The notes under the pieces were generated by a model. That model was not told the origin of the DNA and did not search any database. It saw nothing but the letters and a program-made list of their open reading frames with translations. This document shows, in pieces, positions 2,501-61,484 of a stretch of 64,000 bases of DNA (its first letter is position 1; each line of letters begins with the position of its first letter). The DNA lies in contig NZ_JAMXFA010000035.1 in the NCBI RefSeq assembly GCF_025370785.1, forward strand, positions 1 through 64,000, written 5' to 3'. This DNA comes from Laspinema olomoucense D3b (GTDB taxonomy: Bacteria; Cyanobacteriota; Cyanobacteriia; Cyanobacteriales; Laspinemataceae). The position numbers and the translations under genes were made by a program.

Positions 2501-4252
2501 TTAAGTCGGCGGGGTAAAATGCTGAGGACAGCCCCAGAGGATACGCTCATGCTTATAAATGACCATGCCGGGTTTAGCCCCCTTGGGTTTATAAACATTT
2601 TTCGGTTCCGTGTACACCACCGGGACTTGCTCACTGTGACGGGCGCGACTATAGTAAGCGGTTAAATCCGCTGCAAATTGTAAATCCGCTTCATCGGCAA
2701 CGGCACCTGGGGGTAGGCGCAATAACCCATGACTTCCGGCAATCTCCTGGGTGTGGAACCACAAGTCATAATCCGTCGCTACCCGAAAACTCAACACATC
2801 ATTCTGGCGATTATTCCGCCCGATCAGCAGTTCAAACCCACTGGGAGAGACAAAGCGGTAAAACTCTGGGGTGGATTCCTGGGTTTGACGCTTGTAGTCG
2901 GGGTCGGTGAGATATCCCTGCTGGATGAACTCTTCGCGAATTTCAGCTAATGCTTGTAAATCTGCCGGTTCCCGGTAGTCGTCGATTTGAGCAATGGCGA
3001 CTTCAATCTGTTCTAAGTAGTCGATTTCCTGGCGAACAGCGGCGAGTAAGGGTTCTACTGCACCCCGCGCCCGTTTTAGTTTTTGGTGGCGTTTGTAGAG
3101 GGATTGAGCATTTTGCACGGCATTTTTTTCTAAATCCAGGGGAATGGTGACGGGTTCGCCAGTCTCAAAGTCGGGCAGGGCGATCGCCTTCATCCCCGGT
3201 TGCCACTCCTGCAAGTTCGCCATCAATAAATCGGCTTTTGCCCGATAGTCATCCGCTTCGGAAGATTCTTGCAAGCGGTTTTCAAATCCCTGCGCTTTGA
3301 CTCGCAATTTATTCAGGAGATTGGAAAGTTTTTGACTCAGTTGATGGCGCAGTTGCTTAAAGTCAAACCCATTGAGTTCATCGGTATAGTACCGATTTAA
3401 TAAGTCTTGGACTGATTTGAAATCCGGGGGTTCTGGATTGTGGTTCCAGTTGATAACTTGATATCCAGTTTCTGTCCAATGGGGATAGATGGCGGATAAA
3501 TCGCCGGTTTGACAGGTTTGGAGAAAGTTTAGCCACTGTTGCCAGCAGGCAAAGAGGTGGTTCCAATCGTCTGGGGTCAAACTGTGGGTAGATTGTTCAA
3601 AGTCGAGTCCCGCAGAGGCGATCGCCGCTTTCACCAAATGAGAACTCAGACCCTGATAACTTTTGAGCATTTGCCGTCCCAAGGCATCAGGAATTAGGGC
3701 AATCCGTTCTTGCCAGCGAGATTGCGGTTCACTGAGGTTGGGGATCGGGTCCGTTAGGCTGGGGGGCAAGGCGTAGGGCGCGCCGGTGAGGATGGGGCGG
3801 ATACTGGACTGCTTTTCACTCACCTGATGGGCAGCAGTGACGATTTGATTATCGGCATTAGCGAGGATAGCGTTACTGCGTTTGCCCATGATTTCGATAT
3901 ATAGATGCCACAGCACCGGGTCTCCCGGACGTTGGGCAAATTGGAGGTCCAGGGCGCGTTCCCAGGGGGAGACGGGGGCGATCGCCACAAATGCCAAACC
4001 CCCCAGTTGATGGCGCAATTGGTCACTAAAGGTAAAGGTATCCGGTTTGCGCGGGGGTGGGTCACTCAGATGCAACCTTGCCGCAGTGGGATGCCAGGAA
4101 ACCGCCAACCATCCGCGCCCGGTGAGGGTTCGCAGGGCTAAAAAAATGGTATGGCGATCGCGCTGATAAACCTGTTCGAGTCGCGCCGGTAACCAAGTGG
4201 TTCGCAACTCGCAATAGGCGGCGATCAGGGTAGTCAAGTCAACAGGTTGCAT
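2501..4252 (-). CDS. rqcH: NFACT-family ribosome quality control protein RqcH
   Basis: The 583-residue protein has the NFACT layout (Rqc2/RqcH, also called fibronectin-binding protein A-like). The NFACT-N part covers about residues 1-200, including WHLYIEIMGKRSNAIL. A helix-rich, coiled-coil middle covers about 280-430, and the NFACT-R (DUF814) domain lies near the C-terminus with GRNNRQND and DLWFHTQEIAGSH. Members bind obstructed large ribosomal subunits with peptidyl-tRNA and recruit tRNA-Ala to add alanine tails that mark stalled chains for degradation. The ATG at 4252 starts exactly at the conserved N-terminus. The gene is monocistronic, with a terminator candidate at 2271-2301. The family assignment is firm; the alanine-tailing role is inferred from the family. 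Confidence 0.92.
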   Translation of the reverse strand: MQPVDLTTLIAAYCELRTTWLPARLEQVYQRDRHTIFLALRTLTGRGWLAVSWHPTAARLHLSDPPPRKPDTFTFSDQLRHQLGGLAFVAIAPVSPWERALDLQFAQRPGDPVLWHLYIEIMGKRSNAILANADNQIVTAAHQVSEKQSSIRPILTGAPYALPPSLTDPIPNLSEPQSRWQERIALIPDALGRQMLKSYQGLSSHLVKAAIASAGLDFEQSTHSLTPDDWNHLFACWQQWLNFLQTCQTGDLSAIYPHWTETGYQVINWNHNPEPPDFKSVQDLLNRYYTDELNGFDFKQLRHQLSQKLSNLLNKLRVKAQGFENRLQESSEADDYRAKADLLMANLQEWQPGMKAIALPDFETGEPVTIPLDLEKNAVQNAQSLYKRHQKLKRARGAVEPLLAAVRQEIDYLEQIEVAIAQIDDYREPADLQALAEIREEFIQQGYLTDPDYKRQTQESTPEFYRFVSPSGFELLIGRNNRQNDVLSFRVATDYDLWFHTQEIAGSHGLLRLPPGAVADEADLQFAADLTAYYSRARHSEQVPVVYTEPKNVYKPKGAKPGMVIYKHERILWGCPQHFTPPT

Positions 4253-4769
4253 CGCTAATGGTCCAAAATACCCGTAAATTTACAATCCCAGTTATCAAAT
4301 TCTCAAAAAGCACCCCACACCTCTCAAAAATCCATGAATTGCCTTGCCGAGTGCAGCGGATTGTCGAGTTTGCCCAAATTTTGTAGATACTATGGAAATT
4401 AGAGCGCGATCGGGGTCAACTCTACAAAGAGCCTGAAATCGGTCACGACTCTGGGTGGCGATCGCAATTCGGCTACTTCCAGGGAGGGTGGCACAGAATA
4501 CTAATTTTGCCCCTATTCAGGGTATCATTCCCTGCTCCTGAATTCCGATGGCCGCTTGTTGTCTCTTGAAAACAGCTATCCTATCCCCCAAGCTGAAAAA
4601 CTTGCCTGCTGAGGTTTACAGCATTTTTAGCAAAAATCCTCCCCGCAACCGGGGGACCGGAGGAGGTTCCCGGACCCAAAATCTCCTCAGATCTCATTTT
4701 TAGGGTTCAAAAGGGTTCAAACTGCTTTGAGAAGAAAAAACGTTTTATATCCCGAGGATGCTCCTATTT
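4253..4769. other. Intergenic region between divergent rqcH and remA
   Basis: No ORF here looks coding. The region must contain the two divergent promoters. A GC-rich hairpin-prone segment (about 4643-4676, with the arms GGGGGACC and GGTTCCCGG) and a direct repeat of GGGTTCAAA (around 4703 and 4713) lie upstream of remA. No recognised operator or riboswitch is visible. Confidence 0.4.
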
Positions 4770-5021
4770 ATGGATATTCAGCTCATTAATATCGGGTTTG
4801 GTAATATCATTTGTGCTAATCGAGTGATTGCCATTGTCAGTCCCGAATCTGCCCCCATCAAGCGCATTGTCACGGAGGCGCGGGAGGGGAATCGGCTAAT
4901 TGATGCGACTTACGGACGGCGGACAAGGGCAGTGATTATTATGGATTCCAGCCATGTGATTCTTTCGTCAATTCAGCCGGAGACGGTTGCCAATCGGTTC
5001 GTTTCCAGTAAAGATAGTTAA
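4770..5021 (+). CDS. remA: RemA/DUF370 family regulatory protein
   Basis: This small protein of 83 residues belongs to the RemA (DUF370) family. The conserved N-terminus [11 protein letters not shown] is followed by [12 protein letters not shown] and the basic [15 protein letters not shown] segment. RemA is a DNA-binding activator of extracellular matrix genes in Bacillus; the cyanobacterial role is not established. The ATG at 4770 fits the family N-terminus better than the ATG four codons upstream at 4758. It sits 120 bp upstream of gmk, a neighbour pair conserved across many bacteria, so co-transcription is likely. Confidence 0.9.
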
Positions 5022-5141
5022 GCCAATCTAGGAAAAGCTTGACTGGGTTTTCCTAGGGGTCGGCGTTCAAGTTATCTAACGTTCCGGCGGCCTCTTTTGG
5101 GAGGAGTTAGCAATTTTTGGGTCTAGGAAGGGATTATCTAA

Positions 5142-5705
5142 GTGATGCAGATGGGTCAATTAATTGTGTTTACGGGTCCGAGTGGTGTGGGGAAAGGAAC
5201 GTTGCTGCGATCGCTGTTGGCACGTCATCCAGAACTAGAGTTGTCGATTTCAGTAACAACTCGTGCACCTCGCGAGGGAGAAATTGAGGGGCGGCATTAT
5301 TATTTTGTGAACCAGGAGCAATTTCAAGGGTTAATTGCGACGGGTCAACTGTTGGAATGGGCAGAGTTTGCGGGAAATTATTATGGGACTCCCCGAACCC
5401 CGGTGGAAGAGATGATCGCCGAGGGGAAATTAGTGGTTTTGGAAATTGAGTTAGAAGGGGCGAGGCAAGTTCGGGAAACCTTTCCCGGGGCGCTGCAATT
5501 GTTTATTTTACCGCCATCCCCGGAGGAGTTGGAACGGCGGATTCGGGTTCGGGGGCAGGATTCTGAGGAGGCGATCGCCCGTCGTCTCCACCGTGCTCAA
5601 GTCGAAATTGCTGCTGCCGATGAGTTTGATATTGCCATTGTCAATGATGATTTTGACCGGGCATTAGAGGCGATCGAAACGGCTTTATTTGCCGCAGTTT
5701 CCTAA
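5142..5705 (+). CDS. gmk: Guanylate kinase
   Basis: Guanylate kinase phosphorylates GMP to GDP with ATP in cytosolic purine nucleotide metabolism. The 187 residues match the usual length. The P-loop GPSGVGKGTLL lies near residue 11, the GMP-binding segment SVTTRAPREGEIEGRHYYF follows at about 36-54, and the lid contains ELERRIRVRGQD. Two further in-frame ATGs at 5145 and 5151 make the exact start uncertain by up to three residues. It follows remA on the same strand and is closed by the bidirectional terminator at 5819-5873. Confidence 0.97.
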   Translation: MMQMGQLIVFTGPSGVGKGTLLRSLLARHPELELSISVTTRAPREGEIEGRHYYFVNQEQFQGLIATGQLLEWAEFAGNYYGTPRTPVEEMIAEGKLVVLEIELEGARQVRETFPGALQLFILPPSPEELERRIRVRGQDSEEAIARRLHRAQVEIAAADEFDIAIVNDDFDRALEAIETALFAAVS

Positions 5706-5723
5706 GTGTTTCAAACGGCTACC

Positions 5724-5813
5724 AAATTCAGTTGTCTCAACTCGTTTTTTTCTATGACGCCGCGCAGGCGGGCTTTGTCTGTAGAGCCAGACCCTTGAGG
5801 GTGCGGGTTTTTA
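5724..5813. repeat. Dispersed intergenic repeat (copy 1 of 3)
   Basis: The segment reading CAGTTGTCTCAA, then CGCGCAGG, GGCTTTGTC, GTAGAGCC and ACCCTTGAGGGTG is shared with 46120-46214. An inverted, shorter version is at 58420-58478. All three copies lie just downstream of genes and can fold on CCCGCGCAGG and ACCCTTGAGGGT. It is not coding. Confidence 0.7.
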
Positions 5814-5818
5814 TAAAC

Positions 5819-5873
5819 AAAAAGCGATCGCCTCTCTCTAATCCCATAGAATAGAGAGAGGCGATCGCTTTTT
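5819..5873. terminator. Bidirectional terminator with HIP1 in the stem
   Basis: A perfect 22-bp inverted repeat (5819-5840 and 5852-5873) begins with AAAAA and ends with TTTTT, with an 11-nt loop. The stem contains GCGATCGC. It separates gmk (+) from psaJ (-) and can terminate both transcripts. Confidence 0.9.
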
Positions 5874-5920
5874 GTTTAATCAATCCCAACAGTTCTGGCT
5901 TGATCTATCTTTAGTCACTC

Positions 5921-6046
5921 TTAAAAGGGAGGAACTAAGGCATCAGGATAGATTTTGTTGGCGACAATCAAGAGAGTGGCTGTTAGAGACAGCCATACGA
6001 TTAAGACAACTGGCCCGAGCGACAGATACTTAACAAAAGAATCCAT
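5921..6046 (-). CDS. psaJ: Photosystem I reaction centre subunit IX (PsaJ)
   Basis: A 41-codon gene. The translation begins [18 protein letters not shown], continues through a single hydrophobic helix (about residues 10-30) and ends YPDALVPPF, the recognisable pattern of PsaJ. This one-helix thylakoid protein contacts PsaF and stabilises its position in photosystem I. An AGGAG ribosome-binding site lies 9 nt before the ATG. It is 90 bp downstream of psaF on the same strand, the usual psaF-psaJ operon. Confidence 0.95.
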
Positions 6047-6136
6047 GAACGCTTCTCCTAAATTGAACAAGGGTTAATATTGAGATTTTAGATCTTAGCT
6101 GGGCTAAAATCTAAAATCACTTTCAACTGAACTTTC

Positions 6137-6625
6137 CTAACGGGGTGAGACAGTAATCTCATTATTTTTGGCCGTTAATTTACCCGTGGTAAATTCGCCT
6201 AAAGCAGCCAAAGGCCAAACGGCACTACCTAAAGAACATTTGATTGCCAAAGGAATGTCAATGATAATTTCTTTTTCTTCAGGACTGCCACTGCCACGAA
6301 CGGCAATCAGGTAGGAACGCCCTGCCCAGCCAATCCATCCGGCAATATAGAGAAACAGCAAGCTAGGAATTCCAAACTCATTAACGTGAGCCAAGTTGCC
6401 ATCCACAATCAAATGAGGATAGCCTTCAGGTCCACAGAGCAAGCTGGAATATTTATCAAAGCGAGCTTTTGCGCCTGGATTTTTAGCAATAGAATTCTTA
6501 GCCTTTTGAACGAATGCCGGATTATCACTGCAAGGAGTGAGGTTTTGGTATAAGTCAGCAGATGCAGCAGGGGCAAAGCTGAACCAAAGGCAAATCGTCA
6601 GAACCAACGCGAACAATCGTCCCAT
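6137..6625 (-). CDS. psaF: Photosystem I reaction centre subunit III (PsaF)
   Basis: PsaF is a lumen-exposed subunit of photosystem I. The 162-residue precursor has an N-terminal signal peptide (about residues 1-23, ending SFAPAASA) followed by mature DLYQNLTPC. Two conserved cysteines (NLTPCSDN and [10 protein letters not shown]), the [15 protein letters not shown] segment and the transmembrane [15 protein letters not shown] are all typical. An AAGGAAA ribosome-binding site precedes the ATG. psaJ lies downstream. The divergent gene tsaD starts 287 bp away, so the gap holds both promoters. Confidence 0.97.
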
Positions 6626-6911
6626 AGAATTGTTTCCTTTTGTTACGAAACATCAAGATTGTTAACAAAACCGGAGGCTGCTTTGTTACTCGATCTAGTT
6701 TATCGATCTGTGCGTTCTTTTGCTCAGGCTCTGGGAGAAAGAGGGTTGAAGTCATTCTCCCCCGGACATGAGGGCAACACCGAGGATAAAACGCGATCGC
6801 GTAAGAGCAGGTGAGTTCTGGGAACTTCCAGAAAATCATACTCTGCTAAGACAACCTCGTAAAGATTAAGCTAGGCAATAGTTAACCCAATATTCCAAAA
6901 ATTACCAGCCA

Positions 6912-48869: not shown

Positions 48870-50030
48870 ATGCCTGCTAAAAAAACATTGTCAAAATCAA
48901 CGGTTAAAACTAGCTCTCAGCGAGTCGCGCTTTATTGGGATGGTCAAACTGTCAAAATTAGTCCAGAACGAGCCGACTTTTTGGTAGAATTTTCAGCCAA
49001 ACAGGGAGAATTGGCTCTGTGCCATGCTTACTCTAATTTAAAACAGGAAAATCGGAATTATGCCGATTATTTAACGGAACTAGGATTTAAACAAGTTGAT
49101 GTGTCTTCTGAGGGCAGAAATAGTCTCGACCACAAGTTGATTGTGGATTGTGTGAATTATGCCGTGGAACCTGATTCGGCGGAAATTTTTATTATTGTAT
49201 CGGGAAAGGGAGATTTTGCGAGTTTAGGTGAGATTTTAAAAAGCCGAAACAAAAAGGTGGTTGTTTTGGTCCCAAAGGGGGGATTCAGCCCCGAGCTTCT
49301 GGATGTGGCTGATGAATTTCATATTATGGAAAGTTTGGATGATGTCCCCAGTTTGCCTACTTTTCGTGACCCTGCTTTACTGGATTTGGCTTTAATTCAT
49401 CGGTCTTATGCAAATGAACATCCCGAGGTGGGTCAGAATAATGAAACGCTGGAGTTTTTAGGCGATTCGGTTCTCAATTTTCTGAGTACCCATTTTCTTT
49501 ACCGCCTTTATCCCGATTTGAATGAATCCCAATTGACTCGATTGCGATCGGCCCTGGTGGATGAAACTCAACTGGCCGATTTTGCCAATTATTTGGAGTT
49601 GGGTAAAAAGATGAAGTTGGGGAAAGGTGCAATTAAAGATAAAGCTCGAAAAAATGATTCATTGTTGAGTGATACGTTTGAAGCGATTATTGGGGCATAT
49701 TTCCTAGATTCCGGGATTGAGGCGGTTCGCAATTTTGTAGAACCTTTATTTGAATCGGCGGCGGAAGGTCTTCTCGATCGCAAATTGACGGCTGAATCTA
49801 GCATTCTTTTAGATACCAAAAATCGCTTTCAGGAATGGGTACAGGGAAATCTCGGTCCGACTCAACCCAAATATGAAACGATCGCCCAATCCGGACCGGC
49901 TCATGCACCCGATTTTACTGTGGAAGTGAAGGTGGGTAATCAAGTGTATGGCGTGGGTAAAGGGCACAGTAAAAAAGAGGCGGAAAAACGGGCGGCTGAG
50001 TTAGCCTTAAAACAGGTTGGTGCATTATAG
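48870..50030 (+). CDS. NYN domain-RNase III-dsRBD fusion protein
   Basis: A 386-residue fusion of two nuclease folds. Residues about 17-155 resemble an NYN/PIN-like (LabA-type) domain: VALYWDG (D24), LDHKLIVDCVNY (D87, D93) and FIIVSGKGDF (D115). Residues about 168-300 are an RNase III catalytic domain with NETLEFLGDSVLNF (E192, E195, D199) and SDTFEAIIGAYFLDSG (D268, E271), matching the metal-binding acids of bacterial RNase III. Residues about 315-384 are a double-stranded RNA binding domain ending KGHSKKEAEKRAAELAL. All RNase III acids are kept; the NYN domain is partly degenerate (Asn of DGxN is Thr, SGDGDF is SGKGDF). It may process dsRNA with guided single-strand trimming. Confidence 0.85.
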   Translation: MPAKKTLSKSTVKTSSQRVALYWDGQTVKISPERADFLVEFSAKQGELALCHAYSNLKQENRNYADYLTELGFKQVDVSSEGRNSLDHKLIVDCVNYAVEPDSAEIFIIVSGKGDFASLGEILKSRNKKVVVLVPKGGFSPELLDVADEFHIMESLDDVPSLPTFRDPALLDLALIHRSYANEHPEVGQNNETLEFLGDSVLNFLSTHFLYRLYPDLNESQLTRLRSALVDETQLADFANYLELGKKMKLGKGAIKDKARKNDSLLSDTFEAIIGAYFLDSGIEAVRNFVEPLFESAAEGLLDRKLTAESSILLDTKNRFQEWVQGNLGPTQPKYETIAQSGPAHAPDFTVEVKVGNQVYGVGKGHSKKEAEKRAAELALKQVGAL

Positions 50031-50149: not shown

Positions 50150-51082
50150 TTAGTTCGATCGCCGTCGCAGGACCTCTAATAACGTATGCAAATAATCCGG
50201 CAAGGGGGCGATCGCCTGAATGGTTTCCCCGGTTTCTGGATGTTCTAGGGTCAAACTCCAGGCGTGTAATGCTTGTCCGGGCAGATTTACTCCCAGCGAT
50301 CGCCCACTAGAATACACCGGATCACCGACGATCGGATGTCCGATATAGGCACTATGGAGGCGGATTTGATGCGTCCTTCCGGTTTCCAGTTGAAAATGAA
50401 TTAACGTATAATTCCCCAAGCGTTCTTTAATTTGCCAATGGGTTACCGCCTGTCTCCCGCCTTTTTCTACAGGAACGATCGCCATTTTCTTGCGATCGCT
50501 CGGATGTCTGGCGATCGGTGCATCAATGGTTCCGCTTTCGGTTTTCGGGACTCCATAAATAATCCCCAGATAGTCGCGACGGGCAGTTTTAGCTTGAATT
50601 TGACCTTGTAAATGTTGATGAGCGTGATCCGTTTTGGCGATGACGATCGCCCCACTGGTATCTTTATCCAAGCGATGAACAATTCCCGGACGCTGTACGC
50701 CGCCAATCCCGGACAAGTTCTGACAATGTGCTAATAAGGCATTGACTAAGGTATCATCGGAATGTCCCGGTGCCGGATGAACCACTAAACCGGCGGGTTT
50801 ATTGATGATAATCAGGCAGTCATCTTCATAGAGAATATCCAGTGGAATCTCAGTGGCGCCGACTTCCAAGGGTTCTGCTGGGGGAATCTCGATGCAGAGG
50901 CGATCGCCGCTTTCCACCTTGATCTTTTTCGAGGTGCAAACCTGCCCATTGACTTTTACGCAATTTTGTGATATCAATTGCTGTATTCGGGACCGGGACA
51001 GGTCGGGGAGTTGGGAGGCCAGATAGCGATCGAGGCGATCGGTCTCCTCATTGACTTCTAAATTAATTTCTCTAATTGCCAT
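50150..51082 (-). CDS. rluD: 23S rRNA pseudouridine synthase, RluD family
   Basis: A 310-residue RluA/RluD-family pseudouridine synthase. The S4-like RNA-binding domain is at the N-terminus (LDRYLASQLPDLSRSRIQQLI). The catalytic motif GIVHRLDKDTSG has the active-site aspartate; INKPAGLVVHPAPGH, PVEKGGRQAVTHW and LETGRTHQIRLH complete the family pattern. Which large-subunit rRNA sites it modifies is inferred from family. The frame could extend to 51304, but that region encodes tRNA-His, so the ATG at 51082 (or 51085) is chosen. Confidence 0.93.
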   Translation of the reverse strand: MAIREINLEVNEETDRLDRYLASQLPDLSRSRIQQLISQNCVKVNGQVCTSKKIKVESGDRLCIEIPPAEPLEVGATEIPLDILYEDDCLIIINKPAGLVVHPAPGHSDDTLVNALLAHCQNLSGIGGVQRPGIVHRLDKDTSGAIVIAKTDHAHQHLQGQIQAKTARRDYLGIIYGVPKTESGTIDAPIARHPSDRKKMAIVPVEKGGRQAVTHWQIKERLGNYTLIHFQLETGRTHQIRLHSAYIGHPIVGDPVYSSGRSLGVNLPGQALHAWSLTLEHPETGETIQAIAPLPDYLHTLLEVLRRRSN

Positions 51083-51206
51083 CATTCCGGTGTAAGTCCC
51101 TATTTTTGAGGGCATTTCTCCCGGTTTGGAAAACCCCTGAGCTAAAATACGACTAAAATAAGATAAGTCAGGGATACAGAACCACTGTTTCCCTGACTTA
51201 TCTGAG

Positions 51207-51279
51207 GGCGAACGACCGGGATTGAACCGGCGAATGGTGGAATCACAATCCACTGCCTTAACCACTTGGCTACGCCCGC
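51207..51279 (-). tRNA. trnH: tRNA-His (anticodon GTG)
   Basis: The acceptor stem GCGGGCG pairs with CGTTCGC (two G-T pairs). The anticodon stem GTGGA/TCCAC encloses TTGTGAT with anticodon GTG, and the T arm is CCGG-TTCAATC-CCGG. The extra 5' G (51280) that tRNA-His carries at position -1 is encoded and opposes C73. No 3' CCA is encoded. It lies between rluD and the divergent DUF4359 gene. Confidence 0.95.
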
Positions 51280-51431
51280 CACCACGTTTTTTAATATAAC
51301 ACACCCTTGTGGATTTGATCTACCCTTTTTCAAAAAAAAATCAAAATTTTTGAAAAATTGCAGGGAAGGGGTGCTGAAGTCAGGGGGGGAATGGGGAAGT
51401 CTAAACAAAGAAATGGGTACGTTGAGTGACG

Positions 51432-60974: not shown

Positions 60975-61484
60975 CTAATAATCGATTTTCTCTATGTGGT
61001 CGCGAATATCATTCAAGTCAATATAGCGATCGGTGGCATTTCTCAACTCTCGGGCAATCATTCCTTCGGTGGAAACGACGGTGATATGAGTATTTTTAGA
61101 CCGTAAGAGTTCGATCGCCCGCTCGAAATCCCCATCCCCACTAAATAGCACCACTCGGTCATACTGTTCTACCGTATTAAACATATCGACGACAATTTCG
61201 ATGTCTAAATTAGCTTTTTGAGAATAGCGGCCCGAAGTGTCGTCATAATATTCTTTAAGAATTTTCGTGCGAACAGTATATCCCAAACTAATCAGTGCAT
61301 CTCTAAAACCCCGTTGGTCCTGGGGGTCTTTGAGTCCGGTGTACCAAAAGGCATTAATTAACATAATCCCAGGCTGCTCTTGGGTAAAATATTCTAGCAC
61401 CCTTCTGGGATCGAAAAACCAACCATTCTTTTGTTGAGCGTAGAACATATTGTTCCCGTCTACAAAAATAGACAGACGGTTCAT
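60975..61484 (-). CDS. LabA/DUF88 NYN-domain protein
   Basis: A 169-residue NYN (PIN-like) domain protein of the LabA/DUF88 family. IFVDGNNMFYAQQ carries the first Asp and Asn, KANLDIEIVVDMF the middle acids and VVLFSGDGDFERAIELL the last, so all expected acidic residues are present. LabA affects circadian output in Synechococcus elongatus, and other NYN proteins are RNases. Compare the degenerate NYN part of the fusion at 48870. The ATG at 61484 is chosen; an ATG at 61496 adds four residues. Confidence 0.9.
   Translation of the reverse strand: MNRLSIFVDGNNMFYAQQKNGWFFDPRRVLEYFTQEQPGIMLINAFWYTGLKDPQDQRGFRDALISLGYTVRTKILKEYYDDTSGRYSQKANLDIEIVVDMFNTVEQYDRVVLFSGDGDFERAIELLRSKNTHITVVSTEGMIARELRNATDRYIDLNDIRDHIEKIDY

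Follow-up and report, generated by a model that had tools for sequence, protein, structure and literature searches.

Antisense RNA, structured mRNA and the precursors of stable RNAs are all substrates of RNase III, an enzyme of which cyanobacteria have several copies with no clear division of labour among them. In the window, the whole 64,000-nucleotide stretch of Laspinema olomoucense D3b DNA analysed here, one reading frame joins an RNase III and its double-stranded RNA-binding domain (dsRBD) to an N-terminal NYN domain. This gene raises the questions of whether the fusion is genuine and inherited, whether its NYN partner is associated with RNase III elsewhere, and what the two halves may do together.

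Domain architecture of the fusion protein

48870..50030, + strand: NYN-RNase III-dsRBD fusion gene, 386 aa (Pfam, NCBIfam; kept across the genus and in two further genera)
48921..49328, + strand: NYN (PIN-like) domain, residues 18-153 (Pfam PF01936, 78.8 bits; a genome search gives the same bases)
48948..48950, + strand: codon of T27, Asn in most relatives (alignment)
49206..49208, + strand: codon of K113, in most relatives an Asp aligning with the catalytic-triad residue D452 of MARF1 (alignment)
49329..49367, + strand: 13-residue junction between NYN and RNase III (domain limits, Pfam)
49368..49742, + strand: RNase III domain, residues 167-291, with E192, E195, D199, E219, D268 and E271 (Pfam)
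49818..50015, + strand: double-stranded RNA-binding domain, residues 317-382 (Pfam PF00035)
61014..61478, - strand: a further NYN gene, falling outside the RNase III-linked clade and no part of the fusion system (117.7 bits; NYN tree)

The fusion is a single uninterrupted open reading frame (ORF) with an ATG start, and all three domains exceed their curated Pfam cut-offs: NYN (E 7.7e-22, 78.8 bits against a cut-off of 24.2), Ribonucleas_3_3 (residues 167-291, E 1.3e-31; Ribonuclease_3, residues 192-282) and dsrm (E 7.1e-20). The NCBIfam 'ribonuclease III' equivalog TIGR02191 covers residues 164-382 with 226.6 bits against a cut-off of 166.25. These matches bear out the original prediction, made from the letters of the window, that NYN, RNase III and dsRBD share one ORF, and the residues it named (D24, T27, D87, D93, K113, D115, E192, E195, D199, D268 and E271) are all found at their numbers.

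In profile searches of the PDB, a NYN profile (A2) finds VPA0982 (2QIP, E 2.8e-13), and MARF1 (6FDL, E 9.4e-13; also 5YAA), and the RNase III half resembles solved bacterial RNase IIIs and Drosha. From the profiles (Pfam; PDB 2QIP, 6FDL) the N-terminal half is assigned as a predicted NYN domain; AlphaFold, run on six close sequences, returned models of low confidence, with a mean pLDDT of 45.6 for the whole protein and 42.8 for the NYN half alone. A HEPN domain found no Pfam match in the fusion protein up to E 1. The RNase III subunit is worded in a passage of PMC10989914 as one RNase III domain plus one dsRBD, from which the D3b subunit differs by its N-terminal NYN. Compared with class-I enzymes (TIGR02191; E. 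coli Rnc), with which it shares the RNase III domain, the dsRBD and the six catalytic acids, it has ~160 extra N-terminal residues, which make up the NYN domain. The sequence is best read as a class-I RNase III that carries its own NYN partner, probably a non-cutting one in D3b.

Inheritance of the fusion

Among the 14 genomes of the family that were searched, the fusion is present in all eight of the genus Laspinema, at 85-88% identity and without stops in the other seven, and at 57% identity in G396, which belongs to another genus of the family; in five of the 14 the best match is an unfused RNase III. Order-wide, 42/388 genomes have a match at E <=1e-72, and ten of these 42 span both domains, namely the nine of the family and G495 of another family (46% identity), whose NYN (43.9 bits) and RNase III both exceed their cut-offs. 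In a class-wide sample of 388 genomes, an unbroken full-length match occurs only in the strain's own genome among the matches listed (to E ~2e-56), and a wider contig scan yielded, outside cyanobacteria, one alphaproteobacterial RNase III match (L047), which has no NYN part. Named carriers are Oscillatoria sp. HE19RPO 216, Phormidium pseudopriestleyi FRX01, Laspinema palackyanum D2a, Laspinema sp. D2d and an Oscillatoria metagenome-assembled genome (MAG). The flanking genes are common to L041, L042, L044, L045 and L137, are shared on one side by L043 (L. palackyanum D2a) and are not shared by G396; G390 (L102), with short flanks, has a different downstream neighbour.

A frame error, the risk raised with the original prediction, or an assembly artefact is rejected because the fusion recurs without stops in 8/8 genus genomes and in two further genera (G396 and G495). 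Recent import by phage or plasmid is likewise rejected: among the matching records, 0/64 from plasmids and 0/12 from phages cover 80% of the fusion, and two pattern-based scans found no relative in viral contigs.

The fusion is not alone in its genome, where a second rnc had been sought. Four genes in all encode an RNase III domain; besides the fusion they are an unfused rnc behind its own NYN on contig C26, a deeply divergent ('type 2') gene on C4 and a shorter one on C46, which is Mini-III-like by length only. The genome also has a YacP-type NYN on C21. A separate NYN-rnc pair is found in 5/8 genus genomes. In G389 (3 contigs, listed as 100% complete) only the fusion and a divergent type-2 rnc were found, and in this genus the fusion may have replaced the ordinary class-I enzyme.

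A recurring NYN-rnc gene pair

The unfused 232-aa rnc on contig C26 is preceded, at a distance of 109 bases, by a NYN ORF of 180 aa; the corresponding distance is 12 bases in G053, and the two genes of G159 overlap by 8 bases. Profile A2, whose ten rows are all fused or linked, was run over the 388 class genomes and matches at E 1e-6 in 283 of them. We examined 48 of the best 50 NYN rows (83 bits and up). In 30 of the 50 the NYN is either fused to rnc or part of a same-strand cluster with it; since six of the 50 are profile seeds, the figure for the non-seed rows is 24/44. Twenty-nine of the 30 are fused to rnc or directly upstream of it, and one is the first of two tandem NYN genes before rnc (G183, L085:2087-4021; one of the two is 687 bases off). 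Gaps between linked genes, measured on mechanically called ORFs, run from -146 to +306 bases. Four short NYNs (G185, G155, G169 and G371) and 14 members of a long, ~450-aa NYN family have no rnc in the available sequence, which downstream is short for L069 (311 bases), L070 (128), L091 (424) and G371 (425); the remaining two of the 50 rows have the length of the long family. Among the rows examined below 83 bits (L094-L097), L096 is linked, and L095 runs to the end of its contig. With few rnc among several thousand genes, we estimate that chance cannot explain the pairing.

In the NYN tree, which has several long branches and unsure inner joins, the linked and fused NYNs fall into one clade (97/89) and make up 47 of its 51 rows, the other four being unlinked; the long NYNs and the genome's other NYNs fall outside it. 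In this tree, whose rows include no named LabA sequence, the fused NYN groups apart from the genome's other NYN proteins (L004, L005 and L008), with which a LabA-type protein would be expected to group. The separate NYN that the original prediction placed near 60975 is real (61014-61478, - strand) and stands outside the clade of the fused NYN. The fusion is the fused state of a recurring cyanobacterial NYN-rnc gene pair. The fusion of the original prediction is genuine and inherited, but it is no isolated oddity. A NYN subfamily found repeatedly before rnc, and fused with it on at least one occasion, is a candidate RNase III partner, and the pairing makes the partner question testable in laboratory strains.

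RNase III trees place the NYN-linked enzymes in several lineages. In these trees, which give no frequencies because the rows without NYN were chosen as best matches, nine fusions form one group (98/95; 78 RNase IIIs, G495 absent), and another clade (100/100) has 25/28 rows NYN-linked, including the strain's own C26 copy; the NYN-linked label needs at least seven changes on starred branches. With G495 included (75 rows, near-copies dropped), the fusions form one group at 53/44, in 47% of bootstrap trees, and because this grouping is only weakly supported a single origin of the fusion is neither shown nor excluded. An 846-aa ORF of G365 (L202:561-3101, - strand) joins a part that by eye is N-acetylmuramoyl-amidase-like to an RNase III-dsRBD; it is possibly an assembly join, because its contig is only 3.5 kb.

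Many linked NYN proteins (L049, L050, L053, L054, L057, L059, L060 and L066) have a conserved C-terminal module of ~85 aa after the NYN domain, for which no significant Pfam or PDB profile match was found; a LOTUS/OST-HTH identity, suggested by eye, is unsupported by these profiles. Stretches like the module were also seen by eye in L128 and L129.

Active-site residues and selection

The catalytic triad of MARF1 consists of D358, D426 and D452 (PMC11346440), which in our reading of the profile alignment correspond to D24, D87 and D113 of the fusion. The D3b protein has D24 and D87, with a Lys at the third position (K113). Seven of the ten fusions have a complete triad, which is lost in D3b (G000, K113), G390 (N113) and G495 (N24, E87), the last of these with a diverged NYN, so that the alignment of its triad is less sure. 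Among separate linked NYNs the triad is complete in 37/38, the remaining one, L096, having a gap at D24 near a contig end, and it is complete in 7/7 unlinked and 14/14 long NYNs. Triad loss in 3/10 fusions against 0/37 scorable separate linked NYNs gives a Fisher p of 0.0074, uncorrected for relatedness.

The original prediction had called the NYN half partly degenerate and proposed that it may recognise rather than cut RNA. The degeneracy stands for D3b, with K113 and T27, but is no family trait: 6/8 genus members and G396 keep the triad. Recognition without cutting is likewise plausible for the D3b copy, where K113 occupies the position of a catalytic Asp of MARF1 and VPA0982. The three genus fusions with changed NYN motifs (G000, G390 and G394) all come from genomes that also have a separate NYN-rnc pair.

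Over the 28 pairs of genus members, mean dN/dS is 0.27 for the NYN half and 0.076 for the RNase III half. Because the NYN value is below 1 in 28/28 pairs (at most 0.44), the NYN half is still selected as a protein, under purifying selection. It spans 0.08-0.40 in pairs with intact triads and 0.22-0.44 in pairs with D3b, which suggests at most a stronger relaxation in the D3b copy; since the ranges overlap, relaxed selection on the NYN of degenerate members is not clearly shown.

The equivalents of E192, E195, D199, E219, D268 and E271 are complete in 10/10 fusions. We take their correspondence to the E. coli residues from the motif, with which an alignment to the T. maritima enzyme agrees. In E. 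coli these acids are E38, E41, D45, E65, D114 and E117, and the D114A mutant is weakly active in vitro and binds little dsRNA (PMC8708148). At the D114 position, distinct NYN-linked RNase IIIs have Ser in 27, Cys in one and Asp in seven (n=35, several near-identical genus copies included), compared with Ser in 15 and Asp in 20 of 35 unlinked RNase IIIs, a set chosen as close matches rather than as a random sample, which includes one alphaproteobacterial sequence and some loci for which the upstream sequence is short (e.g. 391 bases for L202). Five rows missed by the pattern used for these counts were taken from the alignment.

Relation to known RNases

A bacterial RNase III fused to an RNase-type domain is already known. 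HEPN-RNase III-dsRBD fusions in a cyanobacterium were called 'two-headed RNases' (Anantharaman et al. 2013, PMC3710099), a precedent that qualifies the premise of the original prediction that RNase III normally has no N-terminal partner. Like the D3b protein, they are cyanobacterial proteins in which an RNase-related domain precedes the RNase III-dsRBD; they differ in the partner, HEPN instead of NYN, in having Asn at the E. coli D114 position in 10/10, where the NYN fusions keep Asp, and in their separate place in the RNase III trees. We found ten distinct HEPN fusions, including L129, each with HEPN_Swt1 above cut-off. At least 12 genomes encode such HEPN_Swt1-RNase III-dsRBD proteins, which are ~395-432 aa long (L128-L130, L190-L197 and L201), and the HEPN fusions of L193 and L201 have a plain rnc as their immediate neighbour.

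On the NYN side, MARF1 and VPA0982 match by profile over the NYN domain, and the triad of these and the CRISPR-associated NYN nuclease is kept in most fusion relatives; the fusion differs from all three in being joined to RNase III, and the D3b copy in lacking one triad Asp. With the cyanobacterial NYN-rnc pairs it shares the NYN clade and a class-I RNase III, whereas the pairs are two genes, with an intact triad in 37/37 scorable NYNs and mostly Ser at the D114 position of the RNase III (27/35). In the titles, abstracts and passages of the open-access literature searched, including PMC8195603 and PMC2848206, we found no earlier account of a NYN-RNase III fusion, of a NYN-rnc pair or of the residue pattern described here.

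Proposed joint action of the two halves

We lean, with modest confidence, towards an account drawn from sequence in which the class-I RNase III and its NYN-subfamily partner would work jointly on RNA. The RNase III-dsRBD half would form the usual dimer and, by family knowledge, would cut double-stranded RNA such as sense-antisense duplexes and structured precursors, while the NYN half would engage single-stranded RNA beside the duplex, a substrate that for the linked NYNs is our guess. In relatives with an intact triad the NYN may also cut, trimming single-stranded ends or loops; one complex would then make two kinds of cut, and fusion would render the pairing obligatory. The D3b NYN, predicted to be non-cutting because one catalytic Asp is Lys, would instead bind or position the RNA. 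Other NYN domains are metal-dependent single-stranded RNA endonucleases (PMC11346440, PMC6294520), and the Anabaena RNase III Alr0280 is described as co-degrading a sense-antisense pair (PMC10989914). Should the two heads share the work, bacteria would offer an example of a dsRNA-cutting enzyme coupled to a nuclease for single strands, and the fusion and the recurrent gene pair point to a two-part RNA-processing tool in cyanobacteria. Three observations speak against joint action: the ~3.5-fold higher dN/dS of the NYN half, which also fits decay towards a passenger, the absence by alignment of two triad residues from the fused NYN of G495, and the 35 distinct same-class RNase IIIs, picked as close matches, that have no nearby NYN.

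A more elaborate version, which we regard as rather doubtful, is an undescribed two-headed complex whose catalytic work passes from one head to the other: when the two are fused, the RNase III would cut and the NYN guide it to RNA, and in separate pairs most of the cutting would fall to the NYN, which the RNase III would direct to duplexes. It would account for separate pairs with intact NYN triads (37/37 scorable) and Ser or Cys in place of the metal-site Asp in 28/35 linked RNase IIIs, and for fusions with complete RNase III acids (10/10) and lost NYN triads (3/10). It is at odds with the seven Asp-bearing linked RNase IIIs, none of which has a triad-less NYN. Shared ancestry may explain much of the pattern, because Ser also occurs in 15/35 unlinked enzymes and Asp-linked NYNs keep the triad.

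Alternative explanations

The NYN half could be a decaying passenger, acquired when a stop was lost between neighbouring genes and leaving only the RNase III-dsRBD half at work, a possibility we take seriously while thinking it improbable. The triad has been lost differently in the three fusions that lack it and in none of the scorable separate linked NYNs, in rows that are not independent, and the dN/dS values of the two halves (0.27 and 0.076) would also fit. Against this, no pair of the 28 exceeds 0.44, the NYN persists without stops in 10/10 fusions of three genera, even the most changed one (G495) is above the Pfam cut-off, and 7/10 have the full triad. An enzyme of stable-RNA maturation, by analogy with Mini-III and the NYN nuclease Rae1/YacP of B. 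subtilis, seems to us unlikely. Mini-III and Rae1/YacP share one operon in B. subtilis, and a NYN/RNase III processing complex was reportedly proposed in 2006. The likeness is that of an RNase III-family enzyme and a NYN nuclease in one chromosomal region of 76 genes, the two enzymes functioning in the maturation of 23S rRNA and at the A site of the ribosome (PMC8266666), and in Synechococcus PCC 7002 one RNase III matures both tRNA and rRNA (PMC10989914). The B. subtilis proteins are, by contrast, unfused and of another RNase III class and another NYN family (PF05991 rather than the PF01936 of the fusion), and the maturation job may already be filled in D3b because its genome has the YacP-type NYN on C21 and the short RNase III on C46.

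We consider it equally improbable that the fusion is a two-headed anti-phage or anti-transposon RNase, akin to the 2013 proposal for HEPN-RNase III proteins, which are treated there under bacterial RNA-based defence (PMC3710099). HEPN-RNase III fusions adjoin a NYN protein of the linked clade in three genomes (directly behind it in G397 and G398, in front of it in G399), an ATPase bearing a NACHT C-terminal domain follows one unlinked clade NYN at ~600 bases, and a NYN nuclease is known from a type III CRISPR locus (PMC11346440). The fusion, like several linked NYNs, weakly matches part of the PADLOC model 'LabA-like NYN nuclease' (27.7 bits, E 4e-7), as is expected of a NYN domain. On the other side, presence in 8/8 genus genomes, mostly in a conserved place and under purifying selection, is unlike patchy defence genes, and the searches of viral contigs and of phage and plasmid records (at 80% coverage) gave no relative. 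We also compared up to three genes per side at 20 NYN-rnc loci (113 proteins; the D3b window locus is outside this set) and 20 unlinked rnc loci (117), with neighbours taken as the longest non-overlapping, mechanically called ORFs, a procedure that lost one core gene in L150 and L151. Among the top 25 of 101 families per set there is no PADLOC concentration near the NYN-rnc loci, the most frequent PADLOC family having four members in each set; the arrangement therefore looks like ordinary chromosomal RNA metabolism, and a defence island is unsupported.

Neighbouring genes

In the neighbour scan, response regulators, DUF2887, Uma2 and kinases come first near the NYN-rnc loci, and sigma-54 activators and response regulators near the control loci. 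In the window, tRNA-His at 51206-51279 (- strand) falls within a mechanically called ORF (50150-51304); the pseudouridine synthase-like gene there probably starts downstream of the tRNA, as comparison with relatives of 311 codons indicates. The unlinked clade NYN near the ATPase with the NACHT C-terminal helical domain is that of G185 (L138:3096-3533 and 4137-6749), and a transposase-like ORF is found nearby. The NYN-rnc pair on C26 (L009) has a TumE toxin-family gene upstream (2240-2626) and a DUF2887 gene downstream (5097-5876).
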